60,979 nt of DNA from a virus. Numbering within the stretch: the stretch's first letter is position 1; every line of letters starts with the position of its first letter. Location: the IMG/VR virus record IMGVR_UViG_3300044638_007105, positions 1 through 60,979 of that record. One strand, given 5' to 3'. The notes below the pieces were generated by a model that saw only the letters and a program-made list of their open reading frames with translations, was not told the DNA's origin and made no database searches. Of the stretch, positions 3,447 through 60,273 are shown piece after piece. The position numbers were made by a program, and so were the translations under genes.

Positions 3447-5444
3447 GTGAGAGAACAATACAATATAGAAGACTTGGATTTTTTCTATAACGCTAGAACA
3501 TTATTTTATGAAATTGGTTATGATGATAAACCTGTAAAAATTCATGATGCTGTTAGTGATGATAATGGTTATTTAATACATGTTGGTATTCGTGATGGTG
3601 AATATAATATTTGTTATTATATTTTCGTTGGTGAGGATAGTACTGAAGTTGAGGAATGTATTGCAGGTCAAAAGTTATTGCTGAATGCTTTAAATAACGG
3701 GAATATTGAACCAATTATGTCAAGTCTTGATGTAGAAGATGTTTTTAATTCATTAAATGAATCGACCGACAATTACCAACCAAAATTATATCTAAGATTT
3801 GAACCACCGATTCATAACGATACTCTTGGCATTAGACAATTGGATAAAATTTTAATTTTGATTGAAAATGAATACCCAACAGTTAGTTGGTTTCAAGGTC
3901 AAGAACCTTCCCAATACAATCCTTTTATCCAAGAAGGTGAAGATATCCCCGAACAAGTTAAATCTATCACCATTGGTTATTGGCCTGATAAACCAAATCT
4001 TTTAACTTATGGTCAGTGGGATGATAATGAAGAAGGTTATACAAATACAATTGACGGTTGGTTGTGGCTTGAAGAACGTGATGTTGATTATGATAAAACT
4101 TCCGATTTATTTAATTCATTGAATGAATCCGATGAATCAAGAATTCCTAGTGCCGGTGATTATCTTATTTTTGTTGGCAGTGAATATGGTAAATGGTTCC
4201 ACCCACTTTTTACAGTTGGTAAAGTTTATAAAGTGTTTAACACCTCAGAAGGCATTATAGAAGTTCAAAATGATAGGGGTGGTCTATCAAATTTTAGTGT
4301 TGATTTACTTGACAATCTTAATTGGGAAACTTGGTTTCGATTAGCCAAATTTGATTATGACAAAACAACAGAAATCTTCAATCAATTAAACGAATCCACG
4401 TACCAACCAAAATTAAATTTAAGATTTGAGGATGGTATTTCTGATGCTAATGAACTTGATAAGGTATTAAAAGTTTTAAGTCTTGTTTATCCTGGATTAA
4501 AATGGCTAGGAGGCGACCCAATTACGTCACACAATGTTATTCGTAATGTTGAAGATGATGAAAGAGAAGATTTTATATACGACCCAATTTATTATTTAAC
4601 AATTGGTTATTTTCCTCACGCTCCAGATAAACTTACTTATACAAATGGACCTGATGATGATATTGGTTATGCGGATGAGGAACAACATGGTTATAATTGG
4701 GTTGACGGTTGGGAATGGGTACAAAAAAATGAGGTTGACTATGATGAAACATCAGATATCTTTAATCAACTAAATGAATCGTATGATTTTCTTAAAACAA
4801 CAAATTTAATTGGTTATAGTTTTAAAACTGTAGCTACTACTGACTCTAGGTATTGGATTATTCGTCATGTTTTTAATGATAAAGGTGGTTACGTAACTGT
4901 TACTATGGAATACTCACCACTTTTTATTACAGACGTAGGAATAGAAGGTTTTCCAACAACAAAAACAATAAAAAAAGATAAGGTTATTGATTTTATTAGT
5001 TCTGGTAAATGGGAAATTGTTAGTGTACCTAATCAGATTGATTCTTTTGATGTTTTTGATAAACTAAATGAATCTACTCGAAAAGAAGATGGATTTACTT
5101 TAATTTTTGACCCACCAATTGAGGACCCAAAAACAATGGAAATGGTTTTGATGAAATTACAAATTATTCATCCTGATTGGACTTGGGTTAATGATAAAAG
5201 ATTGATTGATTACAATATTTTTGATTCGGGTGAAATAGGGTTTTATAAAGGACAATATGATACTGTAGTTGGTGCCTTAACCGTTAACCATCCTGAATGG
5301 GAAAACTCAAAAGGGGTTAGTTGGAGTTCTACCGATTATGACGAACCTTATATCAGAAATATGCCAAAATATAATGGTTGGGAGTATATAGAAGAATTAG
5401 GTGACATACCAACTACTGAAGACATTTTTAATCAATTAGGTTAA
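3447..5444 (+). CDS. Polyprotein-like protein with six segments joined by FNxLNE-S
   Basis: A 665-aa protein. The GTG at 3447 is chosen because a TTG at 3426 would place the late promoter inside the gene. The motif (I/V/L)F(N/D)xLNE followed by S recurs at residues ending E105, E227, E316, E444 and E542, and the C-terminus is the same motif cut short (EDIFNQLG). The segments are 105, 122, 89, 128, 98 and 123 residues. Segments 2, 4 and 6 are related to each other (PKLxLRFE or TLIFDPPI starts, TIGYxPxxPxxLTY, GWxWxE/Q). Segment 3 carries the GDYL domain also found in the next polyprotein. L-N-E is a prohead-protease type site, so it may be cut into six small virion proteins. No enzyme motif is recognised. 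Confidence 0.8.
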   Translation: MREQYNIEDLDFFYNARTLFYEIGYDDKPVKIHDAVSDDNGYLIHVGIRDGEYNICYYIFVGEDSTEVEECIAGQKLLLNALNNGNIEPIMSSLDVEDVFNSLNESTDNYQPKLYLRFEPPIHNDTLGIRQLDKILILIENEYPTVSWFQGQEPSQYNPFIQEGEDIPEQVKSITIGYWPDKPNLLTYGQWDDNEEGYTNTIDGWLWLEERDVDYDKTSDLFNSLNESDESRIPSAGDYLIFVGSEYGKWFHPLFTVGKVYKVFNTSEGIIEVQNDRGGLSNFSVDLLDNLNWETWFRLAKFDYDKTTEIFNQLNESTYQPKLNLRFEDGISDANELDKVLKVLSLVYPGLKWLGGDPITSHNVIRNVEDDEREDFIYDPIYYLTIGYFPHAPDKLTYTNGPDDDIGYADEEQHGYNWVDGWEWVQKNEVDYDETSDIFNQLNESYDFLKTTNLIGYSFKTVATTDSRYWIIRHVFNDKGGYVTVTMEYSPLFITDVGIEGFPTTKTIKKDKVIDFISSGKWEIVSVPNQIDSFDVFDKLNESTRKEDGFTLIFDPPIEDPKTMEMVLMKLQIIHPDWTWVNDKRLIDYNIFDSGEIGFYKGQYDTVVGALTVNHPEWENSKGVSWSSTDYDEPYIRNMPKYNGWEYIEELGDIPTTEDIFNQLG

Positions 5445-5472
5445 AAAACTTTTCAATTTAAAGTTAATTTAT

Positions 5473-5480
5473 TATCTTTG
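5473..5480 (+). promoter_or_regulatory. Host-type -7 box TATCTTTG
   Basis: TATCTTTG lies 17 bases before the ATG at 5498. The -33 element is weak (TTTC about 18 bases upstream). Confidence 0.4.
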
Positions 5481-5497
5481 TTTAAATAATTAAATCT

Positions 5498-5746
5498 ATG
5501 AAATTCGGAACATTTTTATCTTTATTAGGTGGTACCACTAATCTTATCCTCACTATTGTTAATTTACTTGAAGGACAAAATCAAATAGCTTCAGTATGGG
5601 GTACAGCATCTATTTGGGCCTTTTCTACTTTTTTTACTGAATTAAACCTTAGTAAAAAAGAAAAACAAATTCAAAACATTAAAGACGCTATTGTTTCTTC
5701 TGAAAACGAAGTTGAGGCGATTAACAAAATTAACGACATACTTTAA
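5498..5746 (+). CDS. Small membrane protein
   Basis: An 82-aa protein. Residues about 5-24 (TFLSLLGGTTNLILTIVNLL) and 31-46 (VWGTASIWAFSTFFTE) look like two membrane-inserting segments; the rest (KKEKQIQNIKDAIVSSENEVEAINKI) is a charged amphipathic helix. A hairpin membrane protein with a cytoplasmic helix would fit a holin or an antiholin, but that is a guess. It is followed two bases later by the next gene. Confidence 0.6.
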   Translation: MKFGTFLSLLGGTTNLILTIVNLLEGQNQIASVWGTASIWAFSTFFTELNLSKKEKQIQNIKDAIVSSENEVEAINKINDIL

Positions 5747-5748
5747 AT

Positions 5749-5970
5749 ATGATTCGTACTGTCACTGTAAACTACAAAGGTCTTGAACTAGAATGTAAGG
5801 GTTATCATACACCTTATAAAAATAATGGGCGGGATAATCCACCTGATAATGAATGTTTTGAAATTGATACCGTTATTTGGAACGGTGTGGATATTTTAGA
5901 AGTACTTGATTCTTTAAATGTTGATTGGTGTGAGTTAGAATCGGTATGTCTCGAGTTTTTAAACGACTAA
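5749..5970 (+). CDS. Small conserved phage protein
   Basis: A 73-aa protein beginning MIRTVTVNYKGLELECKG and containing EIDTVIWNGVDILEVL. I recognise this pattern (T-V-x-Y-K-G-hydrophobic-E-hydrophobic, then TVxWNGVD) as a recurrent small phage protein of unknown function. It is predicted alpha/beta and not secreted. It probably shares the transcript of the membrane protein before it. Confidence 0.65.
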   Translation: MIRTVTVNYKGLELECKGYHTPYKNNGRDNPPDNECFEIDTVIWNGVDILEVLDSLNVDWCELESVCLEFLND

Positions 5971-5975
5971 TAGAG

Positions 5976-5983
5976 ATATTTAT
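5976..5983 (+). promoter_or_regulatory. Putative late promoter box ATATTTAT
   Basis: The box ends five bases before the ATG at 5989. If transcription starts about six bases after the box, the mRNA would be leaderless. Confidence 0.5.
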
Positions 5984-5988
5984 TATCG

Positions 5989-7026
5989 ATGAGTAATATA
6001 AATTCTTTCTACGATAAAAAAATTATTTGGTTGGCTGACTACAATATTTGTGGTGATAATTTTAACTATTTTAAAAATCAACTAATAACCATACTAAGAT
6101 CTTTAAAAGAATTAGATAACCATGTTATAGAAACACTTAATAATATTGGAATTGATTTAAAAAAATATAATGGTTGTTTATTGTATGTAAGATTCATCAA
6201 CAGAAGTACTAATATTAAGTATTATTCTGTTGATGATTATGAACAAGGGGATGATGCACATTTAGATGCTTTGGAGGCTTATCAAGATTTTGTTGATCGT
6301 GGATATTCACCTTTAATATGGTCCGATTTAATAGGTAATACTACAGATACTTACGATATTTTTGATAAAATAAGTGAGTCAAATGAGTACTCAAATGTTT
6401 CACATTTAATTAATAAAAAAATTTGGTTTGACTATCCAACCGAAAGGGAAGACATTGAAAAAGTAAATCAATTTTTTATCGATAACGGTTTCCGTGGTTT
6501 AAAGAGTGATAATATAGACGAGTTTGAAGATTTTATTTATGATAATGATGCAGCTTATTTTAAATTAACACAACATACATCACCTTTACATAGTGTTGAA
6601 GAAAGAAGACCTTATATTGATTATTTTTCTTTGGATTGGACAAACCCTGAAAGATTAAAAAATGACCCAAGCTTTATTTATTATCAAGATATTTTAAATA
6701 TGACTGATACCACTTTAGACATTCTTTCCAATTTGAATGAGTCGGTAGAAGAAATGCAACCAAAAATCGGTGACTACCTTTATTGTCATAAAGAAGTTGT
6801 TATGGATGATGGTAGCAAAGAAACAACAGTAGGTAAATTCTACCAAATTAAAAATGTAATGCGTGATAGGTTGGAGATATTAAATGACCATAGAGGTGAC
6901 CACGTATTTGGTACTAACCCTAAAACATATTGGTATTATGGTATTTGGTTCCATTTAATACCAAAAGAACATAAAAAAGATTTTGATTCTTTTAATCCTG
7001 AAGACATCTTCAATCAGTTAGATTAA
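5989..7026 (+). CDS. Second polyprotein-like protein, three segments
   Basis: A 345-aa protein with the same junction motif as the gene at 3447: YDIFDKISE-S ending at E130, LDILSNLNE-S at E251, and a truncated copy, EDIFNQLD, at the C-terminus. Segments are 130, 121 and 94 residues. Segments 1 and 2 both open with a KKIxW sequence and look like tandem copies. Segment 3 (IGDYL...TVGKFYQI...WFHL) is homologous to segment 3 of the first polyprotein (AGDYLIFV...TVGKVYKV...WFRL). Late-type promoter. I infer cleavage by the prohead protease at I/L-x-E. Function of the products is unknown. Confidence 0.8.
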   Translation: MSNINSFYDKKIIWLADYNICGDNFNYFKNQLITILRSLKELDNHVIETLNNIGIDLKKYNGCLLYVRFINRSTNIKYYSVDDYEQGDDAHLDALEAYQDFVDRGYSPLIWSDLIGNTTDTYDIFDKISESNEYSNVSHLINKKIWFDYPTEREDIEKVNQFFIDNGFRGLKSDNIDEFEDFIYDNDAAYFKLTQHTSPLHSVEERRPYIDYFSLDWTNPERLKNDPSFIYYQDILNMTDTTLDILSNLNESVEEMQPKIGDYLYCHKEVVMDDGSKETTVGKFYQIKNVMRDRLEILNDHRGDHVFGTNPKTYWYYGIWFHLIPKEHKKDFDSFNPEDIFNQLD

Positions 7027-7451: not shown

Positions 7452-8840
7452 ATGAAAAATATTTTTAAATACGTCATATTAGAACAACTCTTAACTGAGA
7501 ATAGAATACAACAGGCAAAGGATAAATATCCTTGTTTACCACCAAAATTGATAGATTATCTATCTAATGGTGATCCTTCAGGTAATAACAAATATCTTGA
7601 TTGGATGTGTAAACAAGTTTGGGATTCTGATGGAAATAATACTTTTGGTACTTTTGATGAAAACCAAGGTATATATACTTGGTTGGAGGATAATGGTGAC
7701 TACAATATAAATAACCCAACAAGTTCACCTGATTGTCAAAAAGTTTGGTCTGAAAATTATAGAAGAGGTGATTTTAATGTCATACCTGTTGAAGGTTGGC
7801 TTAAAGACGTAGCTGATTATATTATAGAAGAAGTTGTTTACTTCAACCGTTTTTCAGGTTCTTTAGAAAAAAAAGATATAAATAGTTATAGTTATGACAC
7901 TTTAGCAAAGGCTTTAGCAATTAAAAAACTTCAGTCAAAAGAAAAAGAATTAGCTAAAGATGTTACTAAAATCTATGAAGATAGTAGTTGGTTGATTGTT
8001 TCACCAAAATCACATCAAGCTTCTTGTACTTATGGTGCAAATACAAAATGGTGTGTTACTACAAAAAATAACCCTGAATACTTTAAACGTTATACAAACG
8101 AACCACAATACTTAATTTTTGTTATCAATAAAGGAAGTAATCAAAAATGGGCTATTAATACCGCTAGAAAACAAGGTCAGGAAAGTGAAGAAGAAGTAAC
8201 TGTACCTTGGCATAAAGAAGTTAAAAATTTAGGAAGACGTTACGTCAATCCTGAAAATGTGGGGGAAAAATTTGGTACTATAGCAGCACAAAAAACTGAG
8301 ACAGGTAGAAGATATGCTCAGGCTGGAGAATATCAAACAACATATTGGAACCCTGAAGATTATGAAATTGGGTGGGGTGCGTTTATTAAAGAATCTAGTT
8401 TACCTAAAAACTTACAAGAATTATTAAAATTTGTTGAAAAACGAGTTAAAGTTAACTTCCAAAAAAAAGAAAAAAATCAAAAAGCCTACGAAACAAACCC
8501 AAACCCTATTCGTCTTAAAAAAGGTGATAAAGTTAAACTTTTAGCGAGTGGATATGGTTTATATAAAGGTGATGAAGGTTATGTAATTTCTACTTATATC
8601 GGAGCACCTGGTAGAGAAAGAGAGGTATATACAGGTAATGCCGGTGTTTATGTTATACATGTTAATGATAGAAAATTAGATTACGAGGCTAATAGAGGTG
8701 TTAATTTAAAAAAAACTGATAAATTATTAACTAAACTAAAATTAAGTGACCCTGAAAAAGATAATTTTAGAAATTATGAAAGTTATGTAAACGTTACAGG
8801 TATACCAGTTAACGGTTTATTCTTACAAAAAATAAAATAA
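7452..8840 (+). CDS. TKWC-family protein 1, tagged, with C-terminal KOW-like domain
   Basis: A 462-aa protein and one of four paralogues in the window. Order: N-terminal tag ending L14-T-E16 (ILEQLLTENR); a DPSGNNKYLDWM motif near residue 40; a helical region; a core domain with SCTYGANTKWCVTTK (about residues 193-207) and YLIFVINK; and a C-terminal SH3/KOW-like barrel (KKGDKVKLLASGYGLYKGD). The conserved Y-G-x-x-T-K-W-C could be an active or metal site, but I know of no function. Late promoter plus tag suggest it is packed in the head. The HAD gene follows six bases downstream. Confidence 0.8.
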   Translation: MKNIFKYVILEQLLTENRIQQAKDKYPCLPPKLIDYLSNGDPSGNNKYLDWMCKQVWDSDGNNTFGTFDENQGIYTWLEDNGDYNINNPTSSPDCQKVWSENYRRGDFNVIPVEGWLKDVADYIIEEVVYFNRFSGSLEKKDINSYSYDTLAKALAIKKLQSKEKELAKDVTKIYEDSSWLIVSPKSHQASCTYGANTKWCVTTKNNPEYFKRYTNEPQYLIFVINKGSNQKWAINTARKQGQESEEEVTVPWHKEVKNLGRRYVNPENVGEKFGTIAAQKTETGRRYAQAGEYQTTYWNPEDYEIGWGAFIKESSLPKNLQELLKFVEKRVKVNFQKKEKNQKAYETNPNPIRLKKGDKVKLLASGYGLYKGDEGYVISTYIGAPGREREVYTGNAGVYVIHVNDRKLDYEANRGVNLKKTDKLLTKLKLSDPEKDNFRNYESYVNVTGIPVNGLFLQKIK

Positions 8841-8846
8841 AAAAAA

Positions 8847-9707
8847 ATGAAAAAATTTATACTTTCCGAATTACAATATAGAAATATAAGAAAATACTTA
8901 ATAGAGTCTAAACTTAGATCTTACGTTTTCGATTGGGACGATAACATCCTAAGAATGCCAACAAAGGTTAATATGGAAAAAAATGAAAACGGTAAGTGGG
9001 TTCCAGTAAAAGTTTCAACCGAAGAGTTTGCTCATTTTAGAACAGATCCTAATTATAGAACAACTTCAAATTCATTTGCTGACTTTACAAACAACGAACC
9101 TTTTTTGGTTGACGCTGAAAAGGCCATTCATAACGGAAGTTTCGCACCAAGCTATAAAAAATTTATTGAAGCTTTGACACATGCAAATCCTTTTGCAATT
9201 AATACCGCTAGAGGTCACAGTCCTGAAACTTTAAAAAAAGGTGTTAAACTTTTTGTTAAAATGGTTTTAAGTGATGATGAAAAAAGAATGATGTTTACAA
9301 ACATACAGAAAGAACTACCAAACGCTTTAACCCAAGGTCTTAATGCCTCACAACTACTAGATTTATATATGGATGAAAGAGGTGAATTTTATCCTGTTTC
9401 ATCTGAAGAGTTTGGTGAAAGATTTGGTCTTGAGGTTAAAGGAGGAGCATCAAATCCTGAACATGCTAAGAAAGTAGCAATTGAAAACTTTGTTAAGAAA
9501 TTAATTGACGGTGTTAAAAAACATATGGTTGCTGGTAAATACAAAAAAATATCTTTAGGTTTTTCTGATGATGATAAAAGAAATGTTAAAGCGGCACAAG
9601 AATTTTTACAAAACGAATTAAGTCAAATGTATCCAGAGGTACATTTTGTAATCTACGATACTTCCGAAGGTGGTAAAAGAAAAATTGTTATTGAAAAGGA
9701 ATCTTAA
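8847..9707 (+). CDS. HAD-superfamily phosphatase-like protein, tagged
   Basis: A 286-aa protein. The HAD nucleophile motif is FDWDDN (D29, D31); motif II is FAINTARG and the acidic motif is GFSDDDKRN near residue 235, so hydrolysis of a phosphate ester is likely, on a nucleotide or a nucleic-acid end. The N-terminus carries two possible prohead-protease sites, ILSE (E8) and YLIES (E20), directly before the catalytic strand, so cutting would leave the enzyme intact. It shares a transcript with the TKWC protein before it. Its last three bases overlap the convergent gene on the other strand. Confidence 0.75.
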   Translation: MKKFILSELQYRNIRKYLIESKLRSYVFDWDDNILRMPTKVNMEKNENGKWVPVKVSTEEFAHFRTDPNYRTTSNSFADFTNNEPFLVDAEKAIHNGSFAPSYKKFIEALTHANPFAINTARGHSPETLKKGVKLFVKMVLSDDEKRMMFTNIQKELPNALTQGLNASQLLDLYMDERGEFYPVSSEEFGERFGLEVKGGASNPEHAKKVAIENFVKKLIDGVKKHMVAGKYKKISLGFSDDDKRNVKAAQEFLQNELSQMYPEVHFVIYDTSEGGKRKIVIEKES

Positions 9708-12591: not shown

Positions 12592-13488
12592 TTAGACTAA
12601 TAAAAGTCCGAATTTTTTACGATATTCTAACACAGAAAGTTCTTTTGCCTTAGATTCAAACATTAAATCTAAATCATAACCGTAAGTGTCAACTTCGTTT
12701 TGAATATAGTCATGGTGTGCACGAAAATTTTGTTCATCACGAGGTTCAGAAATATGAACAACTGGTGTTATATCAGAAGGCCAAGTTGCCACGGCAAGTT
12801 TTAAGGCATCTTCGATACTCATACCATCATTGTGACAGTTATGGTGATGATAGTCGAATACAATAGGTATTTTGGTGTTTTCATGGATATATAACAAGTC
12901 TTTAACAGTAAACATATTTGGCTTGTCATCATTCTCAACAGTCAAACGTTTTTTGGTGTTTTCACCAAGTAATTGGAAGTTATCAACCCAACGTTTCATC
13001 GCATCTTGTTTATTACCATAGGCACCACCAACGTGAATGTTAATTTTAGAAAAAGGTGAAACAGGCAAACCTATCATATCCATAATTTCTGAATGTTTGT
13101 CTAATTCTGAAATTGTTTTTTTAACAACATTTTCACTAGGTGAGGCTAAAACATTAAATGGACCTGGGTGAAAACTTAAACGATGGTTATATTGTCTGAC
13201 AAGGTTACCTAAACCATTTAATAAGTTTTTAATTTTACCAATGTCAGGTAAGTCATCAAAATTATATTCACTCGACCAAGGAAACATATCAGAACTCATG
13301 CGGTAAAGATTGATACCGTTTTTTTCATTCCATTTAATAACTTCAATAAGGTCCCGAACATTTTGTAAAGAAAGTTCTGACACATAATTAAGCCCTTTGG
13401 AGTCAAAAGTTTTTCGAATCATACCACGATTAGTCGTAATATTTTTCTCACCTAGGGTCATGTTGATACACGCGTAACCAATTTTCAT
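12592..13488 (-). CDS. uvsE: UV-damage endonuclease, UvdE family
   Basis: A 298-aa TIM-barrel endonuclease that nicks DNA 5' of UV photoproducts. Family landmarks are the start MKIGYACIN, RMSSDMFPW, RLSFHPGPF, INIHVGGAYGNK, TVENDD, PIVFDYHHH and HISEPR, which carry the metal-binding His, Asp and Glu residues. The start at 13488 is used because the in-frame ATG at 13503 falls within the promoter. Host-type promoter at 13493-13524. With the ligase it provides a short excision-repair route for phage DNA. Confidence 0.93.
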   Translation of the reverse strand: MKIGYACINMTLGEKNITTNRGMIRKTFDSKGLNYVSELSLQNVRDLIEVIKWNEKNGINLYRMSSDMFPWSSEYNFDDLPDIGKIKNLLNGLGNLVRQYNHRLSFHPGPFNVLASPSENVVKKTISELDKHSEIMDMIGLPVSPFSKINIHVGGAYGNKQDAMKRWVDNFQLLGENTKKRLTVENDDKPNMFTVKDLLYIHENTKIPIVFDYHHHNCHNDGMSIEDALKLAVATWPSDITPVVHISEPRDEQNFRAHHDYIQNEVDTYGYDLDLMFESKAKELSVLEYRKKFGLLLV

Positions 13489-13492
13489 AATA

Positions 13493-13524
13493 CAAACATA
13501 CACATTTATATTTTATTGTACAAT
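13493..13524 (-). promoter_or_regulatory. Host-type promoter of the UvdE gene
   Basis: Minus strand: ATTG (13524-13521), 20-base spacer, TATGTTTG (13500-13493), four bases before the ATG at 13488. Confidence 0.6.
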
Positions 13525-16749: not shown

Positions 16750-18426
16750 ATGAACATAATTTTAGAAAACATAAGAAAAGTTTTATTAGAAAACAGGGTT
16801 GATGATGTTAAGAAAAAATATCCTGAAGTTGACCCTGCTATTATTGACTATTTTGTAAAAGAAGACCCGTCAGGTAACAACAAATATCTTGATTGGTTGG
16901 TTAAGGCTATGACCCATGGACCAACAATCCAATCTGTTGAAGATATTTTGGATGAGGCTATGCAATTTAACACACCTCAAGAGTTTTTAATGATGTTGGT
17001 TAAAAAATTTCACGAATTATTACCTTATATGGTATATGTTGAAGATGGTAAGAAAGTTGGTACTACTGATTTGTATCAATATAAATTTACTGACAGTGAA
17101 ATGATTAATTTTTTGGGTTTTGATTTATCTCAAGCAAAAGAAAGAAAAGACGAAAAGAATAAACAAAAAGACGCGAAGAAAAATTCTGATAAAATCTATG
17201 AAGATAAAAATTGGTTGGTAGTTAGACCAAAAAATTGGGAGTCTTCTTGTGTATATGGAGCCGGTACTAAGTGGTGTACAACATCCAAAGAAAATAGTTC
17301 ACACTTTAAACGTGAAACTGACCGTAACTTTTTAATTTACGTAATTAACAAAAATAAAACTTCTAAAGATACTGAATACAAGGTTGCTTGGCAAATTCCT
17401 TATACGAAAAAAGTAAATAAATACGTTACCTCAACACCAGGTAACCCATCAGTTTGGACTTTAAATACCGATAAAATTAAATTATGGAATGCTGAGGATA
17501 CTAATATAGCAAGTAGAGGTTCTTCTGGTTATGATTATTTAGATACGGTTCCGGCCTCTGTTAAGGGGAATATTTTAAAATACATGCAAAGACAAATGGA
17601 TGAAATGTATGCCAACATGGCTTACGTTGAAGATCCTTACACCCAAGCTTTGGTTGAGCATTTGGCTTTAAGTGAAGAAGAAGTTGAAGAGGTTGAACAA
17701 AGAGATTACGGTTATTACGGTATGCGTGTTTATACCGTAGACGGTAGTGATGATTATGCTGTAGCAACAACAGATGAGGTTGAGAGGGCGAAACACGAAT
17801 GGGCGGAAAATTATATTAACGATTTAGGTATTTGGGAAGCTATTGGTAATAATCCCGAAAAATACATTTATATTAACGACCCAAGGACTATAGCAAATGA
17901 TATGGCTGAAAATTATATAGGGGATTTAAATGTAACTGACGATATATTACACGAAGGAAAAAGATTGGACAAAGAAACCAAAGCTATGGTTGAAGAATGG
18001 GAAGTTAATCAATCAATCATGGAAACTAATCAAGAAGATATTGATGATATGATGGAAAGATATGGTGAATTAGATGAAGACGAAGAACAAGAATTGTCAG
18101 AATTAGAAATTGAAAATGAATCAATAGAAAAAACAAACGATAAACTTTTACAATCTATTAAAGATAGAATTCGTGACGATTATTATGAAACTTATGTTAC
18201 TCGTATGACAGACGACCCATTAGATTGGTTGGAAGAGTTTGGTTACTGGAGTAGTAAAACTGGTTTAGATAAATTTGCCATTAAAAACGGTTTGGTTGGT
18301 ATTGACGAAACCGAATTAATTAATGATATGGCAGATGATTTAGATTACGAATATTTTAGTAGGACTGGTAATTACGAGTATGTAAACATAGAAGGTGATA
18401 GATACTACATCTTCCCAACAGATTAA
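16750..18426 (+). CDS. TKWC-family protein 2, tagged
   Basis: A 558-aa paralogue of the genes at 7452, 39343 and 58549. The tag is MNIILENIRKVLLENR, with a site at L12-L-E14. Then come VDDVKKKYPEVDP, DPSGNNKYLDWL, a Lys-rich linker and the core SCVYGAGTKWCTTSK with FLIYVINK. The C-terminal 300 residues are acidic and helical (EDEEQELSELEIENES) and differ from the other paralogues. A late-type promoter precedes it. A head cargo protein is inferred; biochemical role unknown. Confidence 0.8.
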   Translation: MNIILENIRKVLLENRVDDVKKKYPEVDPAIIDYFVKEDPSGNNKYLDWLVKAMTHGPTIQSVEDILDEAMQFNTPQEFLMMLVKKFHELLPYMVYVEDGKKVGTTDLYQYKFTDSEMINFLGFDLSQAKERKDEKNKQKDAKKNSDKIYEDKNWLVVRPKNWESSCVYGAGTKWCTTSKENSSHFKRETDRNFLIYVINKNKTSKDTEYKVAWQIPYTKKVNKYVTSTPGNPSVWTLNTDKIKLWNAEDTNIASRGSSGYDYLDTVPASVKGNILKYMQRQMDEMYANMAYVEDPYTQALVEHLALSEEEVEEVEQRDYGYYGMRVYTVDGSDDYAVATTDEVERAKHEWAENYINDLGIWEAIGNNPEKYIYINDPRTIANDMAENYIGDLNVTDDILHEGKRLDKETKAMVEEWEVNQSIMETNQEDIDDMMERYGELDEDEEQELSELEIENESIEKTNDKLLQSIKDRIRDDYYETYVTRMTDDPLDWLEEFGYWSSKTGLDKFAIKNGLVGIDETELINDMADDLDYEYFSRTGNYEYVNIEGDRYYIFPTD

Positions 18427-21416: not shown

Positions 21417-22847
21417 ATGTCAACTTTATTATTAGAAAACAAATATCTCATAACTGAATCTGGTATCAGAGATATAAACAAATTAGCACAACGTTATGAT
21501 AACGCTAAAATATACTTCCACCAAGACTTAGATGGTGTAACCACCGCTATTGCAATGAAAAACTACCTTGAACAAAATGGTATCAAAGTTGTTGAAACAG
21601 AAGTTATACAGTATGGTGATAAAGAATTTAGTATTAAAAAACCAATGGCAAGAGGTGATATAATGCCGGTTTTGGTTGACTTTGCACACGGTAAACCAAT
21701 GTTTGTTATTCATACTGATCATCACGATAAACAGGTTGGTGCTGAAAAAGGAGCGTCAACATCTTTTAGACAATCACGTTCAAACGTTGAAACTATTTCA
21801 CAAATAGTTTCCCCAAAAGAAATATTCCCATACTTAGATGTTTTAATGATTTCTACTGTTGATAGTGCGGATTATGCTAAAATGGGTATTACCCCTGAAC
21901 AAGTTATGAACTATGTGTTTGTTTTGGATAAGGAAAAAAGTCTTGAAAAGAATAAAAAGATGATGGCCCTTGTAACTAACAAATTATTGTTAGCTTATAA
22001 AAACAAACCTAAATTTTTAGAAAGGCTGGTTATGGAATCTTCCGCATCCCTTTTAAGTATATATCAAAATATAGTTAGATTAGCAAAAGAAGAAGGTTAT
22101 ACTTCACCTGAAGTAATGACACAACACGCTAAGGAATACGCTGAATCAATGAAGACTAGTAAAAATGTATCATATGACCCTACAACTGGTATTATTTCAC
22201 AGTATGGTGGTGGTTACATGGTAAAACCTGGTTCTTATGATAGATACGTACCTTTTAAAAACTTTCCTGAGGCTAATTTCTTAATTATAGCATGGCCTTT
22301 AGGTTTACTACAAGCTAGTTGTAACCCATTTAAGGCTGAAAGAAGTCTTAAAGGTGTTAATTTGGGTGAAATAGCTCAAGAAGTTTTAGTCAAATTTAAA
22401 CCACAATTAGAACAGTTTGAAATTACTGTTGATACAATCAAATATTTTGCTGAAAAACACAAAGATTTTAGTCAAGAATCAGTTGGTTTTACCTATAATG
22501 ACCTTATGGCAATTTATGGTCAGACAGAAGGTGGTATCACTGGTTTAAATACGGTACCCGAAGGTGCTAAAGAAGGTTACACGGTTGAAAGGTGGAGGGA
22601 AGCTATTAAAAAAGTTATGGATAAACCTTATACAAGTTTGGGTGAGAAAGAAATTAAAGCCTTAAAAATGTTAAAAGTTTCGGGGTGGGATATCATTCAA
22701 GCTAATAGTGGTGGTCACAAGTGTATAACCAATATTTCAGGTCTTATGTATTTTGGAAAACAAGGTGTACCTTATCTTAAAGAATTTCAAGCTGAGTTTG
22801 AAAAAGAACTTAGAACAAAAATATTAACAAACAATCAAACAAAATAA
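21417..22847 (+). CDS. DHH-family phosphoesterase, tagged
   Basis: A 476-aa protein of the DHH phosphoesterase superfamily (RecJ, nanoRNase and cyclic-dinucleotide phosphodiesterase relatives). Metal-binding motifs are HQDLDG (D37, D39), the signature DHH (D101-H-H103 in IHTDHHDK) and STVDSADY near residue 147. SGGHKCITNISG near the C-terminus recalls the DHHA1-type GGH substrate loop. The N-terminus has LLLE-N (E7) and LITE-S (E14), both prohead-protease type sites. Late-type promoter. The substrate could be short oligonucleotides, single-stranded DNA or a cyclic signal; the sequence does not decide. Confidence 0.8.
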   Translation: MSTLLLENKYLITESGIRDINKLAQRYDNAKIYFHQDLDGVTTAIAMKNYLEQNGIKVVETEVIQYGDKEFSIKKPMARGDIMPVLVDFAHGKPMFVIHTDHHDKQVGAEKGASTSFRQSRSNVETISQIVSPKEIFPYLDVLMISTVDSADYAKMGITPEQVMNYVFVLDKEKSLEKNKKMMALVTNKLLLAYKNKPKFLERLVMESSASLLSIYQNIVRLAKEEGYTSPEVMTQHAKEYAESMKTSKNVSYDPTTGIISQYGGGYMVKPGSYDRYVPFKNFPEANFLIIAWPLGLLQASCNPFKAERSLKGVNLGEIAQEVLVKFKPQLEQFEITVDTIKYFAEKHKDFSQESVGFTYNDLMAIYGQTEGGITGLNTVPEGAKEGYTVERWREAIKKVMDKPYTSLGEKEIKALKMLKVSGWDIIQANSGGHKCITNISGLMYFGKQGVPYLKEFQAEFEKELRTKILTNNQTK

Positions 22848-26061: not shown

Positions 26062-26171
26062 TTTCCTAACTTTATTTAAATGAAATATATTTAAAAATAA
26101 GGGAAAGAAAAGTTTACAGAACAATTCCCTTTTATTGGTAAAATTATTAGTTTTAAATAAAAATTAGACAT

Positions 26172-51383: not shown

Positions 51384-51396
51384 ATGAATTTATTGC

Positions 51397-51404
51397 ATAT
51401 TTAT
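51397..51404 (+). promoter_or_regulatory. Putative late promoter box ATATTTAT
   Basis: The box ends 21 bases before the ATG at 51426. It lies downstream of the alternative ATG at 51384, which decides the start of the protease gene. Confidence 0.5.
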
Positions 51405-51425
51405 ATAGAAAAACTTTTTATAAAA

Positions 51426-52211
51426 ATGAAAATTTTAAAATCTAACGAAACAGGTAAAGGTATCTTAGTCGAATATGACGCGGGTTATATTTCACCTGAT
51501 ATATCGTATAAAGGTACAAAAAATGCTGATTTAATTCGTGAATTTAAATCAGGTACAAATATAGGAAAAGACGGTAGTCTACCAGACGTAGTTATTGTTT
51601 ACGCAGTACTTCAAAAATGGGGTATTGAAAATAAAAACGGAAGATTATACCCAAAAGAAATTCTTGAAAGAGAAAATACTAGATACCAAGAATATATTAA
51701 AATGGGTACATCTCTTGGTGAGTTAAACCACCCTGAATCTTCCATCATTGATGCAGACAGAGTATCTCACAGAATTACTAAAACTTGGTGGGATGGTAAA
51801 ACACTTATGGGTGAGATGGAATTGGATACAACTCCAGGATATCACAAGTTAGGTGTTATTTCTTCGGTTGGTGATAAAGTTGTTAACATGATTAGAAAAG
51901 GTTGGACTGTTGGTATTTCATCTCGTGGTGTTGGATCACTTAAAGTTGAAAACGGTAAAAACGTAGTACAAGATGACTTTGAATTAATTTGTTGGGATAT
52001 TGTAACATCTCCGTCAACCCCAGGTTCTTGGATTTCAACTGACGCTGGTGATTTAAAAACATTTACAGAATCAACCCAAGGTTGTAACGGTTACTCTTGT
52101 CAATGGAACCTAATTGAAGAGGCCCCTAAAAAAGAAACTGTAAGTTTCAAAGATATCACTAACCATAATAGTGATAAATTATTAAACAGTTTAAATAAAT
52201 TTTTAAAATGA
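51426..52211 (+). CDS. Prohead core protease, T4 gp21-like
   Basis: A 261-aa maturation protease of the herpesvirus-assemblin/T4 gp21 type. Motifs are NGRLYPKEI, GELNHPESS (H102, nucleophile partner), GISSRGVG (Ser165 or Ser166) and WDIVTSPSTP (D191). T4 gp21 cuts after Glu in L/I-x-E, which is why the L/I-x-E tags and junctions across this window matter. The start at 51426 is chosen because the late-type box sits between it and the upstream ATG at 51384. The next gene overlaps by four bases. Confidence 0.9.
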   Translation: MKILKSNETGKGILVEYDAGYISPDISYKGTKNADLIREFKSGTNIGKDGSLPDVVIVYAVLQKWGIENKNGRLYPKEILERENTRYQEYIKMGTSLGELNHPESSIIDADRVSHRITKTWWDGKTLMGEMELDTTPGYHKLGVISSVGDKVVNMIRKGWTVGISSRGVGSLKVENGKNVVQDDFELICWDIVTSPSTPGSWISTDAGDLKTFTESTQGCNGYSCQWNLIEEAPKKETVSFKDITNHNSDKLLNSLNKFLK

Positions 52212-53477: not shown

Positions 53478-55028
53478 ATGAAAATGGCAAACGAAAAGAA
53501 ATCAATTATTGAGGAAGCTCTTCTTGAAGCCGAGCAAATCGACGCCGCTTTCAAATCTAACGCAAAAGAAATACTGTCTCAGACAATGAGTTCAGAAATT
53601 GAAGAAATGGTAAAGGAATCATTAACTGGTTCGAAAAAAAGATTGAAGGAGGAAGATGAAGAGGAAGAAATGGATTTAGACCTTGAATTAGACACCGAAG
53701 AAGGTGAAGAAGAAGGGGAAGAATTCGAAGAAATGGATTTAGATATGGACACCGAAGAAGGTGAAGAATCTGAAGACATGGATTTAGACATGGACATGGA
53801 TACTGAAGACATGGGTATGGACTTAGATTTAGGCGATGAGTCTGAAGAAGGTTCTGAAATGGATTTAGATATGGATATGGACATGGAAAATGAACCGTCT
53901 GGTGAGGAAATGGAAACAGTAGACCTTACTAACGTTAGTGATGATTCTAAATTAATCTCCGTTTTTAAAAAAATGGGCCCAGAAGATGAAATAGAAGTTG
54001 TTAACGATAACGGAATGGTTACATTAAAAGATAACAAATCTGGTTCTGAGTACAGAATCGAACTTAATTCAACTGGAGGAGTTTCTAACGTTGAGACTTC
54101 TGAAATTGAATTGGGTGAAGGTACTGAAGAATCTGGTCAAATTATTTATGAAATCGTTGTGGATGATGAAGACGAAATGTCTGATTACATGATGGATTAC
54201 GCATCTGATGAAGACGAAATGTCTGATTACATGATGGACTACGCATCTGATGAAGATAAAATGATGGACCATATGGATTACGCATCTGATGAAGATGAAA
54301 TGTCTTCTTACATGGATTATAAGAAAAGTGGTTTAAAGAACCCAGGTAAAGCTGATTTAAATAAAGACCATGACATTACCCCTTACGAAAAGAAAAGAGG
54401 AATGGCAATCGAAAAATCTATGGCCGGTAAAGATGATGAAGATGAAATGTCTTATATGTCTAGAAGAGTAACTACTAAAGGTAGATACGCTACTGGAAAT
54501 AGAACAAACACTAATGCCATTAACAGAATGGGTGGTGCTGAATCTTATAAGTCTACTTACGGAATGTCTGAATCAAAAACTCCACAGATTACAAAACTCA
54601 TCAAAGAAAATACAAATTTAAATACAAAATTAACATCTATTGAAAGTGAAAATACTGAATTAAAAGATACTCAAGAAAAAATGGTTGAGGCTCTTAAACA
54701 ATTCAGAAAGAAACTTCAAGAGGTGGCTGTCTTTAACAGCAATCTTACTTACGCTGTAAGATTATTCACTGAAAACTCTACTACAAAAGAAGAAAAACAA
54801 GAAATTTTAAAAAGATTAGATTCGGCTAAAGATTTAAAAGAATCTCAATCAATTTATAAACAACTTGTTAAAGAATACACCAACGGTAAAGCTACTATTA
54901 AGGAATCTATCGAAGAGAAAATTAACAAGACTGCTTCTAGTGGGGCACAAATTAGTGAATCAAGCGTATTTGTACACCCTGAGTTACAAAACATGAAAAA
55001 ACTTTGGGAGTACTCATATAAAAAATAA
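53478..55028 (+). CDS. Scaffold (prohead core) protein, gp22-like
   Basis: A 516-aa very acidic, mostly helical protein. Residues about 60-150 are Asp/Glu/Met repeats (MDLDMDMDT). A tandem DEDEMSDYMMDYAS repeat is at 54165-54310. A coiled coil near 370-420 (LIKENTNLNTKLTSIESENT) and a C-terminal helix, HPELQNMKKLWEYSYKK, follow. Several I/L-x-E sites (LKEE, LEAE, LFTE) fit self-digestion of the core by the prohead protease. Directly precedes the capsid gene, as gp22 precedes gp23 in T4. ATG at 53484 is an alternative start. Confidence 0.88.
   Translation: MKMANEKKSIIEEALLEAEQIDAAFKSNAKEILSQTMSSEIEEMVKESLTGSKKRLKEEDEEEEMDLDLELDTEEGEEEGEEFEEMDLDMDTEEGEESEDMDLDMDMDTEDMGMDLDLGDESEEGSEMDLDMDMDMENEPSGEEMETVDLTNVSDDSKLISVFKKMGPEDEIEVVNDNGMVTLKDNKSGSEYRIELNSTGGVSNVETSEIELGEGTEESGQIIYEIVVDDEDEMSDYMMDYASDEDEMSDYMMDYASDEDKMMDHMDYASDEDEMSSYMDYKKSGLKNPGKADLNKDHDITPYEKKRGMAIEKSMAGKDDEDEMSYMSRRVTTKGRYATGNRTNTNAINRMGGAESYKSTYGMSESKTPQITKLIKENTNLNTKLTSIESENTELKDTQEKMVEALKQFRKKLQEVAVFNSNLTYAVRLFTENSTTKEEKQEILKRLDSAKDLKESQSIYKQLVKEYTNGKATIKESIEEKINKTASSGAQISESSVFVHPELQNMKKLWEYSYKK
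54165..54310 (+). repeat. Tandem repeat in scaffold gene
   Basis: 42-base unit coding DEDEMSDYMMDYAS, two near-perfect copies (54165-54206, 54207-54248), a 39-base third copy and a partial fourth. Confidence 0.85.
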
Positions 55029-55062: not shown

Positions 55063-56859
55063 ATGGGATATTTATTAAAATCAGGTGAGGTTGGTAATAT
55101 CGGATTAAAGCACCAAAAAGCTATCCGTGAGGCAACTGTAAACAAATGGGAATCTTTAGGATTCTTAGAAGGCTTAGAAGGCCATATCAGAGAAAACATC
55201 GCTTTGTTATATGAAAACCAAGCGTCAGTTCTTATCAATGAAACTACCACTGCTGGTGGTGTTGGTACACAAGGAAGTTCTTCTGGTTCTTTCGAAACAG
55301 TTGTATTTCCTATCGTAAGACGTGTGTTCTCTAAATTATTAGCTAACGACATCGTTTCTGTACAAGCATTAAACTTACCTATCGGTAAATTATTCTACTT
55401 CGTACCTAAACGTTCTGAGAGAATTGATGATTCAGCTTTCTTGGCAGGTACAAATGGTGGTACATCTAAACATGGTGAGCCTATCGTTACAACTTGTGTT
55501 GATGCAGCTAGTAACTGTGATTTAACATCATACAGTGCTTGTTTAAAGAATCTTTATGATGCTTTCTACAATGACGGTCTTTTTGATCAATCAAAAGGTA
55601 TGATAACTTTAAAAGTTGTTACAGGTTCTACTTGTGTAGTATGGACAGCTTGTACTAATGGATTTGAATTTGGTGCAGGAAAAACTCCAGCAGCAACTGA
55701 TGGTTCATTACGTCACCAAATTATTGAAGTTACAGGATTTAATTCAACCGGTGCTGGTCGTTTAATCACTCCAGACGGTAATGAAATGGATACTGAATCT
55801 TTCTTAGCATCTTTAACTGTTTCTGCAACTGCAAACATTCTTGACCCAGCTGGTCAAACAATTTACAGTAACGGTGATTCAATTCCTTTCCGTGTGGTAA
55901 CACAAAAATATGGTAAAGGTATTGTTCAGTACGGTGATATCTGTACAGCTGATGGTAAACTTTATATTGAAGTTGACTTAACTCACCCAACTTGTGTAAC
56001 TTGTGGTACTAACACATTTGATGGTTACATTGGAGCTGATTATACTGGAACTACTTGTTCTGAAATCGCTGGTTTCATTTCTTGGAGACAATACTCTGAC
56101 CTTGAAGCTGAATCAGAAATGGGAGAAGTTTCTTTCGAACTTCAATCTGTAACTGTATCTGTTACTGAAAGAAAATTAAGAGCTACTTGGACTCCTGAAT
56201 TAGCACAAGACGTTAGTGCATTCCACAACATCGATGCTGAAGCTGAATTAACAGCATTATTATCTGAGCAAGTTGCAGCTGAAATTGACCGTGAAATCTT
56301 AATCGATTTACGTAAAGGTGCGGCATGGCAATTACGTTGGGATTACAACGGTTGGAAGCGTTTACCAAACAACAATGGTTACACTCAAAAAGATTGGAAC
56401 CAAACTTTGATGACAGCTATCAACCAAATCTCAGCTCAAATCCATAAATCTACATTAAGAGGTGGAGCTAACTTTATCGTTGTATCTTCTGAGGTATCAG
56501 CAGTATTCGATGATTTAGAATATTTCCACGTATCTAACGCAGCTCCTGAGCAAGATCAGTATAACATGGGTATTGAAAGAGTAGGTTCATTAAGTGGACG
56601 TTACACTGTATACCGTGACCCTTACGCTCCAGCATATTCAGTTATCATTGGACACAAAGGTAAGTCATTGTTAGACACTGGTTACATCTACGCTCCATAC
56701 GTACCGATGCAGTTAACACCTACAATGTACAATCCGTTTAACTTCGTACCTGTTAAAGGTATCATGACTCGTTACGCTAAAAAAATGGTGAACAACCGCT
56801 TTTACGGCCATATCAGAGTTGACGGTTTACGTACTTTTGATGTTAGAGAATTACGTTAA
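55063..56859 (+). CDS. Major capsid protein, gp23-like
   Basis: A 598-aa capsid protein. T4 gp23 motifs are NKWESLGFLEG, WTPELAQDVSAFHNIDAEAEL, EQVAAEIDREIL and a final FVPVKGIMTRYAKK with FYGHIRVDG. The N-terminal propeptide ends at VLINE-TTT, with I58-N-E60, at the place where T4 gp23 is cut after Glu65. A Cys-rich insertion (about 140-330) is longer than in T4. Base composition is richer in GC than the neighbours, consistent with high expression. Cotranscribed with the scaffold, 34 bases apart. Confidence 0.95.
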   Translation: MGYLLKSGEVGNIGLKHQKAIREATVNKWESLGFLEGLEGHIRENIALLYENQASVLINETTTAGGVGTQGSSSGSFETVVFPIVRRVFSKLLANDIVSVQALNLPIGKLFYFVPKRSERIDDSAFLAGTNGGTSKHGEPIVTTCVDAASNCDLTSYSACLKNLYDAFYNDGLFDQSKGMITLKVVTGSTCVVWTACTNGFEFGAGKTPAATDGSLRHQIIEVTGFNSTGAGRLITPDGNEMDTESFLASLTVSATANILDPAGQTIYSNGDSIPFRVVTQKYGKGIVQYGDICTADGKLYIEVDLTHPTCVTCGTNTFDGYIGADYTGTTCSEIAGFISWRQYSDLEAESEMGEVSFELQSVTVSVTERKLRATWTPELAQDVSAFHNIDAEAELTALLSEQVAAEIDREILIDLRKGAAWQLRWDYNGWKRLPNNNGYTQKDWNQTLMTAINQISAQIHKSTLRGGANFIVVSSEVSAVFDDLEYFHVSNAAPEQDQYNMGIERVGSLSGRYTVYRDPYAPAYSVIIGHKGKSLLDTGYIYAPYVPMQLTPTMYNPFNFVPVKGIMTRYAKKMVNNRFYGHIRVDGLRTFDVRELR

Positions 56860-56954: not shown

Positions 56955-57887
56955 ATGGGAAAGAAAAGAATTGAAATACCTGAAGATGTTTTATTAGAAA
57001 TGGTAAGATTATATAATGAAGAATATGTTGGTACCCCATCATTGTCAGATAGATTTGGTTACCATAAATCTATTATATTAAGAAGTTTTAAAAACAAAGG
57101 TGTTGTCTTAGGTCCATCTGGTCGTAAATGGACTGGTGGTAGAGAGATTGCTGATAAAAAATGGAGAGAAAAAAATAAAGAAAAATTATCCGAATATCAT
57201 AAAGAATGGTCAGAAAAAAACCGAGAATATTTACGTGAATATCATGCCAAATGGCGTGAAGTAAATCGTGAATCATTAAACGAATATAAAAGACATTACG
57301 AAAAAACCAAAAAAGATTCTGACCCAGCTTATAAATTGGCTTGTTACACCAGAACTGCCATCTATACTTGTTTAAAAGAAAGAAATGTTGATAAATATAA
57401 AAATACTTTTGATTTATTACCTTATACGTTGGAAGAGCTGATTCAACATTTGGAACTTAGATTTCAAGAAGGTATGTCGTGGGATAATTATGGAAGATGG
57501 CATGTTGATCACATTAAACCAATGGTTTCTTTTAATATTAAAGAACCGACTGATAAAGAATTTCAAGATTGTTGGTCTTTAAGTAATTTACAACCATTAT
57601 GGGAACAAGATAATTTATCCAAAGGTGGTAGATATTTATATTATATGCCAAAGAACTATATACCATACGATCTAGCCTTAAAATTGAATGAAAAGGGTTA
57701 TAATGTATCCACTCATGCTTATTATAACATCTATAATAAACATATATTTATTCACACACCTGTCAATCATAATGAAGCTATATGGGCACCAACTTTTGGT
57801 GAGACTATTGATTGGTTCAAAGAAAATTACGATATTGATGTACAACCAAATGTAGAATCTATTGAAGAGGCTTTGAATAAAATATGA
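56955..57887 (+). CDS. HNH endonuclease fused to an ALKxxGx domain
   Basis: A 310-aa protein. Residues about 1-55 form a helix-turn-helix (LSDRFGYHKSIILRSFKNKG); then a Tyr/Glu-rich helical linker; HNH core WHVDHIKPM (H183 and H186) and WSLSNLQPLWEQDN near 220. The last 75 residues (YDLALKLNEKGYNVSTHAYY, then WAPTFGETIDWFKENYDI) match the layout of the small protein at 625. It follows the capsid gene and may be a homing gene; the C-terminal fusion is unusual. Shares ATGA with the next gene. Confidence 0.88.
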   Translation: MGKKRIEIPEDVLLEMVRLYNEEYVGTPSLSDRFGYHKSIILRSFKNKGVVLGPSGRKWTGGREIADKKWREKNKEKLSEYHKEWSEKNREYLREYHAKWREVNRESLNEYKRHYEKTKKDSDPAYKLACYTRTAIYTCLKERNVDKYKNTFDLLPYTLEELIQHLELRFQEGMSWDNYGRWHVDHIKPMVSFNIKEPTDKEFQDCWSLSNLQPLWEQDNLSKGGRYLYYMPKNYIPYDLALKLNEKGYNVSTHAYYNIYNKHIFIHTPVNHNEAIWAPTFGETIDWFKENYDIDVQPNVESIEEALNKI

Positions 57888-58201
57888 AAGATTTAATTCT
57901 TAAAATACTAAAAGAATCGGAAGATGAATTTGATTGGATTGAGTCACCTTTCGGTATTGACGATAATCTAATGAACTATCTAATCCAAAATTACCGTGTT
58001 GGGGAATATAATGACATGGCAAAAGAGTTCTTAGGTGATAAATACGTGATGGTTGATGATAAAATGTATCCACTTGAAGGCCATAAAAAACAATTAACTA
58101 ATAAAATCTATTGGGAGGTTGTTGATGAATTTCCTAACATGAACCAACCTGTTTTAAGAAGAACAATTAAAACTTTTTTAAACAATATCACTAGTAACTA
58201 A
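57884..58201 (+). CDS. Small tagged protein
   Basis: A 105-aa protein starting MKDLILKILKESEDEFDWIE. The tag ends at L9-K-E11, followed by acidic residues and the FDW motif also seen in the protein at 59887 (MKHLIRKILKESDFDWVDE). Beyond that the two differ. Overlaps HNH gene start-stop by four bases, and the convergent gene by 24 bases at the 3' end. Likely head cargo. Confidence 0.65.
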   Translation: MKDLILKILKESEDEFDWIESPFGIDDNLMNYLIQNYRVGEYNDMAKEFLGDKYVMVDDKMYPLEGHKKQLTNKIYWEVVDEFPNMNQPVLRRTIKTFLNNITSN

Positions 58202-59886: not shown

Positions 59887-60273
59887 TTATAGGTATGGTG
59901 GTCCTGGATTAGAACCCCTTACTTTAATATTTTCCGGATCAAATACGTTAAATCTTTTCCAAGCGTATGGGTTTATTGACATTTTTAAGTAATCTAAAGC
60001 CCAATCGATATCATCACCTTCTTGAAATGACATACCTCGCCAACGTGTAATGTCTCCGATGGCGTTTCTAATATTTTGTTTACTCGGATTTCTTTTTATA
60101 TTTTCGATTGCATTACCTATCTCATCATCTTCTTGATAGGCATAACCCTTCCATTCTTCAAACCCTTTAATACCGTCTTCAACCCAAGGCCAATAAACAT
60201 TGTTAGGTAAACCCAATTCGTCAACCCAATCAAAATCACTTTCTTTTAATATTTTTCTAATTAAATGTTTCAT
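59887..60273 (-). CDS. Small tagged protein with repeated W/G motif
   Basis: A 128-aa protein. The tag, MKHLIRKILKE, ends at L9-K-E11 and is followed by SDFDW, nearly the same start as the gene at 57884. Mature part has two related stretches (GYAYQEDDEIGNAIENIKRN and GMSFQEGDDIDWALDYLKMS), a small internal duplication of about 35 residues. It overlaps the upstream gene by one base. Likely cargo; no known domain. Confidence 0.68.
   Translation of the reverse strand: MKHLIRKILKESDFDWVDELGLPNNVYWPWVEDGIKGFEEWKGYAYQEDDEIGNAIENIKRNPSKQNIRNAIGDITRWRGMSFQEGDDIDWALDYLKMSINPYAWKRFNVFDPENIKVRGSNPGPPYL

Follow-up and report, generated by a model that had tools for sequence, protein, structure and literature searches.

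Polyprotein chains are standard in animal viruses, and in the eukaryotic RNA viruses and retroviruses one open reading frame (ORF) is divided by a virus protease at repeated short cut sites between the products. The proteins and genomes of those viruses are unrelated to the case described here, which concerns freely shuffled, putative accessory cargo encoded by two nearby genes, ORF1 and ORF2, of IMG/VR virus record IMGVR_UViG_3300044638_007105, the complete record of 60,979 bases being referred to below as the window. Closer counterparts are the internal proteins IPI, IPII, IPIII and Alt of phage T4, which have the same gp21-type protease, gp23-type capsid and cut site, (L/I)xE followed by a small residue, and which likewise join variable small cargo to a conserved tag, a short amphipathic targeting peptide beside the cut (PMC9026906, PMC3012670). 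In T4, gp21 cleaves after L/I-X-E (PMC9026906), and the variable internal proteins of T-even phages are described as diverse defence proteins in which the capsid-targeting sequence (CTS) alone is conserved (PMC3012670), a variability that resembles the segment turnover at this locus. The inner-body and ejection proteins of the giant phages phiKZ, 201phi2-1 and SPN3US are also head proteins that a relative of gp21 cleaves after xxE, and some of their propeptides carry several sites (PMC9026906, PMC5694885); the giant-phage cuts, however, strip propeptides from a single product, and no segment arrays have been described there. The two window genes differ from the T4 internal proteins in that several cargoes stand in one ORF, the tag lies C-terminal to each segment, the segments are acidic rather than basic, and they are swapped at the cut site inside one reading frame. 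We regard these arrays as an extension of the T4 CTS and internal-protein system, and we put at roughly 0.78 the probability that both ORFs encode modular head-cargo polyproteins that are packaged and then cut by a gp21-type protease.

Both ORFs consist of segments joined at a recurrent junction (Table 1; an arrow marks the proposed cut), with lengths of 105, 122, 89, 128, 98 and 123 aa in ORF1 and 130, 121 and 94 aa in ORF2. A first-pass annotation of the window had listed five junction motifs in the former and two in the latter, and had both proteins ending in a shortened copy of the motif; every residue it named was correct, and the C-terminal copies EDIFNQLG and EDIFNQLD were confirmed. 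The kinships it proposed among the segments also held, as ORF1 segments 2, 4 and 6 proved related (2 versus 4, 38%, E 8e-29; 4 versus 6, 25%, E 3e-7) and a GDYL segment, with weak SH3-like fold matches, is present in both ORFs (30%, E 8e-7). Two details were corrected: the start at 3447 is a GTG codon, and two small ORFs separate the genes. Both genes are letter-identical in three other metagenome records (L006, L007 and L008), which excludes an assembly artefact, and the same design is kept in diverged relatives, so that a frame artefact was ruled out as well.

A loose form of the motif (V/L/I)F(N/D)xLNE↓S was observed 7 times, against a mean of 0.04 and a maximum of 2 in 5,000 composition-preserving shuffles. 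The tail that closes the segments has the consensus [D/N][I/V/L]F[N/D]xLNE, and all of the 26 tail-type junctions have Glu at P1 and Leu or Ile at P3, with Ser at P1' in 25 of them, a combination of hydrophobic P3 and P1' Ser that is found at 1.6% of other Glu residues. Five codons (TCG, TCC, TCT, TCA and AGT) encode this P1' Ser, indicating that selection works at the protein level; a repeat at the DNA level was ruled out, as the synonymous positions of the junction codons vary. Inside the segments, LxE[SATGN] occurs 13 times where 24 were expected from the other proteins of these genomes (p 0.009, kinship ignored). It is very unlikely that the ORFs arose by ordinary gene fusion and segment duplication, with the shared tail an unprocessed leftover. 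The paralogy of segments 2, 4 and 6 would fit such an origin, but clustering of trimmed segments placed the tail at the end of at least ten non-homologous families, which rules out duplication alone, and the junction residues are constant while synonymous sites vary. Moreover, a comparison of junction and segment conservation in relatives, suggested at first pass, gave identities over 16 ortholog pairs, which are not independent, of 77% for P8-P1, 61% for the segments and 54% for the eight residues before the tail (P16-P9), an order not expected of a leftover.

The terminal tails differ from the internal ones at the cut site itself. The scissile P1 Glu is present in 26 of 26 internal tails and in none of six terminal tails (Fisher p 1e-6, nominal because the tails share descent), and five of these six have their stop codon precisely at P1; as an exception, ORF2 of the relative L020 retains LNE↓S and 11 further residues. 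The N-E↓S of the tail is thus kept only where something comes after, and the last segment would be without a scissile Glu since it has nothing downstream. The terminal tails nevertheless retain the helix, and placing Asp at the cleavage position in T4 prevents processing but still permits targeting (PMC9026906), so that the tail helix probably has some role besides the cut site. This independent role, together with the location of the junctions in flexible linkers, would also suit a multidomain cargo that is never cut, its tails serving as tandem targeting or docking helices and the chain staying whole in the head or the host. We consider such an uncut chain unlikely, since docking needs no N-E↓S, yet almost all of the 26 internal tails retain it and all six terminal ones have dropped it, and since the junction site equals the sites in the major capsid protein (MCP) and the scaffold. 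A scan for the terminal tail elsewhere gave one match only, judged to be chance, in L293; this unrelated viral contig (L293:7325-12838) encodes a 1,837-aa protein with repeated stretches that by eye are Hint/intein-like (CFIAGTEV...NHTYHV...VHNK).

The window encodes a gp23-type MCP and a gp21-type protease, which identifies the source as a T4-like phage; the closest isolates by MCP, at ~40%, are Flavobacterium phage immuto and Microcystis phage Mel-JY01. Judged by sequence, the junctions have the form of T4-type prohead-protease substrates, L/I-X-E followed by a small residue, in a phage that has the matching protease, and the likeness to the gp21 site claimed at first pass appears to extend to the head proteins of the whole phage family. 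Near residue 60 of the MCP, I/L-N/T/S-E↓A/T/S was matched by regular expression in 67 of 80 sequences, several of the 13 missed reading LLNE↓S, and the C-terminal region of the scaffold has [LIMV]xE[SGNATD] in 73 of 76, as LNES in 17 and LIES in 36. By ungapped extrapolation of the gp23 alignment, E60↓T61 of the window MCP falls within about one residue of E65↓A66, which we take to be the cut position of T4 gp23. The position fits the 65-residue propeptide of gp23 (PMC9026906). FTE↓S stands close to the C-terminus of the protease itself in the window and in several relatives. The window protease would then be the enzyme that cuts the polyprotein junctions. A different protease, of the host or of the phage after ejection and unrelated to the head, is highly improbable as the cutter. 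Phage polyvalent proteins do offer a precedent, as many domains per chain are delivered with the DNA, their authors liken them to polyproteins, and built-in peptidases can release them (PMC5512222); one relative's polyprotein also closes with a HEIEH-containing segment. In polyvalent proteins, however, large enzyme domains are freed by embedded metallopeptidases, whereas here a head protease would act at tag-like junctions (PMC5512222). No recognisable peptidase domain, neither an embedded MPTase/zincin nor any other polyvalent domain, was found in the window ORFs, and the site matches the gp21-type substrates in this phage family.

Many proteins of the clade to which the window belongs start with MK(N/D)LIRKILKE↓S or a similar N-terminal CTS. 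In 48 collected N-termini P7, P4 and P3 are hydrophobic and P1 is Glu; because the regular expression itself demanded this pattern, the weight lies on their number and register and not on their uniformity. The four positions stand in the same register as residues 4, 7, 8 and 10 of T4 IPIII, of which 4 and 7 serve targeting and 8 and 10 processing (PMC9026906). Segments are exchangeable between an N-terminal CTS and an internal junction: a segment that follows MRNIINKILKE↓ in L104 has a 62%-identical counterpart (E 8e-42) after the internal junction FFDSLTE↓ in L098, and in G001, a longer record of the window species, a free-standing 91-aa protein (L099:15348-15623) carries the N-terminal MKNLIRQILRE↓ before a GDYL-type domain (hhalign 94%; BLAST E 7e-8 with the tail and 0.003 without it) and also has a terminal SNIFNQLDPE tail.

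CTS-like N-termini were also noted on other window proteins. A CCA-type tRNA nucleotidyltransferase (phrog_2244; 49838-51370, minus strand) starts with MKNLIRKILKE↓E, which suggests that it is packaged in the head as an enzyme. LITE↓S and YLIE↓S are found, respectively, at the starts of a DHH-family protein (21417-22847, plus strand; weak Pfam match) and of an FDWDDNIL protein that by eye is HAD-like (8847-9707, plus strand). A family that recurs in several copies per genome, its members bearing DPSGNNKYLDWM-like and TKWC motifs, lies at 7452-8840, 16750-18426 and 39343-42114 (plus strand) and 58549-59307 (minus strand); one member has a weak PcfJ-like match and three have CTS-like starts of the LLxEN type.

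Diverged relatives were found by scanning for motif DNA. The segment order is A-F2-GDYL-F4-X5-F6 in window ORF1, A-F2-F4-F6 in L154 and L031, and F2-F6'-F4-X5 in L020, and in the window, L154 and L020 alike every join between segments is at LNE↓S (in one case LNE↓N), so that gains and losses fall at this site. In L154, ...KTSDLFNSLNE↓STYQPRL... links segment 2 straight to the homologue of segment 4, and the GDYL segment is absent. The L020 polyprotein starts M↓YQPKL where its window equivalent reads S↓TYQPKL, and the homologue of the ORF1 segment at junction 5 is last in it, ending in GIFNQLD and a stop; its counterpart of segment A lies in an adjacent ORF, A-NIFNQLGE↓SIKRIIKE↓EMDEFEWAKE..., in which a targeting sequence of the usual kind comes after the tail. 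This kind of organisation is also seen elsewhere in the window species, in two more ORFs (L099:1580-2605 and L098:4592-6007), as well as in relatives; an N-terminal CTS heads some of these chains (L104:3971, L098:4592, L142:7463 and L158:5937). The longest chain, of 1,154 aa (G005; L109:8940-12404), has about nine (I/L)xE↓S junctions, after which come acidic-aromatic starts (SEEDDFEW, for example), and its last segment, LLNE↓GRYDAI..., is like a protein that stands alone in that record, MMENLITE↓GRYDQV... (E 3e-7). Chains of this (I/L)xE↓S-acidic kind also occur in L129, L142 and L158. As side observations, the last segment of the 1,154-aa chain holds the HEIEH motif, a possible zincin, and resembles the free-standing CTS protein L108:5964-6938; and L158:5937-6581, a two-segment polyprotein with N-terminal CTS, lies shortly downstream of the MCP gene in a 79%-MCP relative and adjoins a single-segment CTS protein (5543-5935).

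This unit-wise gain and loss bears on a further explanation, in which the ORFs encode sacrificial core proteins that aid prohead building and are cleaved to let their pieces out, not to deliver them. T4 gp22, gp67 and gp68 are also single chains in which the prohead protease makes several cuts (PMC9026906, PMC9958956), most of their fragments leaving the head. We regard the explanation as quite unlikely for the window ORFs, because the T4 core proteins become small peptides whereas the pieces here are conserved segments of 89-209 residues, the size of folded domains, that are gained and lost as units, and because one segment type is also free-standing with an N-terminal targeting sequence.

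Outside the clade, no tail-type polyprotein was found in the wider MCP relatives G008-G010, G011 (part), G013, G016, G017 and G023, and the isolated phages (50,697 records) gave no protein-level match to ORF1. The clade's targeting-sequence pattern was not found in immuto or Mel-JY01; immuto has CTS-like N-termini of its own and showed no comparable array. Scans for FNxLNES outside the clade returned single matches only, those inspected (L013, L026 and L036) looking unrelated, and a scan of bacterial genomes gave single scattered matches. The two window ORFs matched no Pfam family at E <= 1, had weak PHROGs matches of unknown function with nothing significant, and gave nothing significant in a PDB sequence search (FEPPI profile) or in fold searches. 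The T4 late-promoter motif TATAAATA occurs barely above chance, with none directly upstream of ORF1.

The AlphaFold model of ORF2 (three-sequence alignment) had a mean pLDDT of 65, with values below 50 at the N-terminus, two short loops, both junctions (Table 1) and residues 340-345 (terminal tail), the better-modelled domains lying between these low-confidence linkers. The first-pass claim that the junctions fall between domains, and not in a buried fold, thus stood for ORF2; the ORF1 model (mean pLDDT 37.9) was too poor to judge it. Taken together, the unit-wise gain and loss at junctions, the identity of the site with those of head proteins, the equivalence of junction and N-terminal CTS and the linkers in the ORF2 model lend strong, if indirect, support to the head-cargo polyprotein interpretation that the same annotation had put forward.

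In this interpretation each segment would be small (about 10-15 kDa), acidic and probably separately folding, and would be closed by a short amphipathic helix that acts as an alternative CTS and ends in [L/I]xE↓S. The chain would enter the prohead with the core via its tails, and the gp21-type protease would cleave after each junction Glu; the freed segments, of about 14 kDa and beginning with Ser, would stay with the DNA and presumably be ejected into the next host like the T4 internal proteins. Since the junction would be tag and cut site in one, segments could be inserted, lost and shuffled as units.

Several points weigh against this interpretation. The ortholog pairs and tails share ancestry, so that the counts are not independent, the phage is uncultivated, and the ORF1 model was unusable. 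The basic, DNA-associated character of T4 internal proteins is lacking, 60 segments having a median pI of 4.58 (range 4.05-6.50), and the window polyproteins have no N-terminal targeting sequence of the T4 internal-protein kind. P4 of the tail is polar, as opposed to the hydrophobic P4 of the N-terminal CTS and of T4, so that targeting by the tail is something we infer. At P1' of the N-terminal CTS, Glu (16) is slightly commoner than Ser (13); the C-terminal site of the protease is loosely defined family-wide, with Asn commoner than Ser at P1'; and across the 15 genomes scanned, tail-type polyproteins occur in a single small clade.

Table 1. Coordinates of the polyprotein genes, their junctions and related head features in the window.
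Feature	Position	Strand	Remarks
ORF1, polyprotein, 665 aa	3447..5444	+	six segments; GTG start
ORF1 junction 1, DVFNSLNE105↓S	3738..3764	+	
ORF1 junction 2, DLFNSLNE227↓S	4104..4130	+	
ORF1 junction 3, EIFNQLNE316↓S	4371..4397	+	closes GDYL (possibly SH3-like) segment
ORF1 junction 4, DIFNQLNE444↓S	4755..4781	+	
ORF1 junction 5, DVFDKLNE542↓S	5049..5075	+	
ORF1 terminal tail, EDIFNQLG-stop	5418..5441	+	stop where P1 Glu would stand
Small ORF between polyprotein genes, 82 aa	5498..5746	+	kept in L020; L031 has a different small ORF there
Small ORF between polyprotein genes, 73 aa	5749..5970	+	kept in L020 and L031
ORF2, polyprotein, 345 aa	5989..7026	+	three segments
ORF2 junction, DIFDKISE130↓S	6355..6381	+	AlphaFold pLDDT < 50 at residues 111-137
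ORF2 junction, DILSNLNE251↓S	6718..6744	+	AlphaFold pLDDT < 50 at residues 239-255
ORF2 terminal tail, EDIFNQLD-stop	7000..7023	+	stop where P1 Glu would stand
gp21-type head maturation protease	51384..52211	+	phrog_207 E 1e-40; T4 gp21 structure 5jbl E 9e-19
Putative scaffold/core protein	53478..55028	+	QISE↓SSVF close to C-terminus; LIE↓S or LNE↓S there in family
Major capsid protein	55063..56859	+	phrog_138; T4 gp23 in PDB E 9e-24; predicted N-terminal cut VLINE60↓T61
N-terminal CTS example, MKDLILKILKE↓SEDEFDW	57884..58201	+	
N-terminal CTS example, MKHLIRKILKE↓SDFDW	59887..60273	-	

Other features of the window were noted in passing. The portal protein (44079-46004, plus strand) ends in DKDLDDFNLLQD, and in NDDLNEFNLLQD in L114, with a loose likeness to the EDIFNQLD tail. 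A glutamine synthetase is encoded among the head genes (47512-48663, plus strand; PF00120 E 8e-18), and the minus strand carries a full-length ClpB/ClpC-like double AAA chaperone (23545-26124; PF07724 E 1e-69) and a UV-damage endonuclease, UvdE (12592-13503; PF03851 E 1e-68).

The first-pass annotation knew of no polyprotein cargo of this type, and our text search of the open PMC literature, which does not cover subscription journals, likewise found no phage head-cargo polyprotein. It is fairly likely that a T4-like lineage has turned to genuine polyproteins for the proteins that it injects, in which tag and protease site share one exchangeable junction, an ORF holds a cassette of accessory proteins, about nine or ten at most, segments are added, dropped and swapped in frame, and the stop falls at the last scissile Glu. 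If so, the polyprotein trick serves tailed DNA phages for delivering proteins with their DNA, and one gene could load and free a whole protein set inside the virus head, the T4 precedent of IPI and Alt suggesting counter-defence or host takeover. The junction would be a readable in-frame barcode for the head cargo of uncultivated phages, many of whose accessory proteins lack a known function, and a self-removing tag of this kind would be a compact means to load several proteins in a fixed ratio into a capsid.

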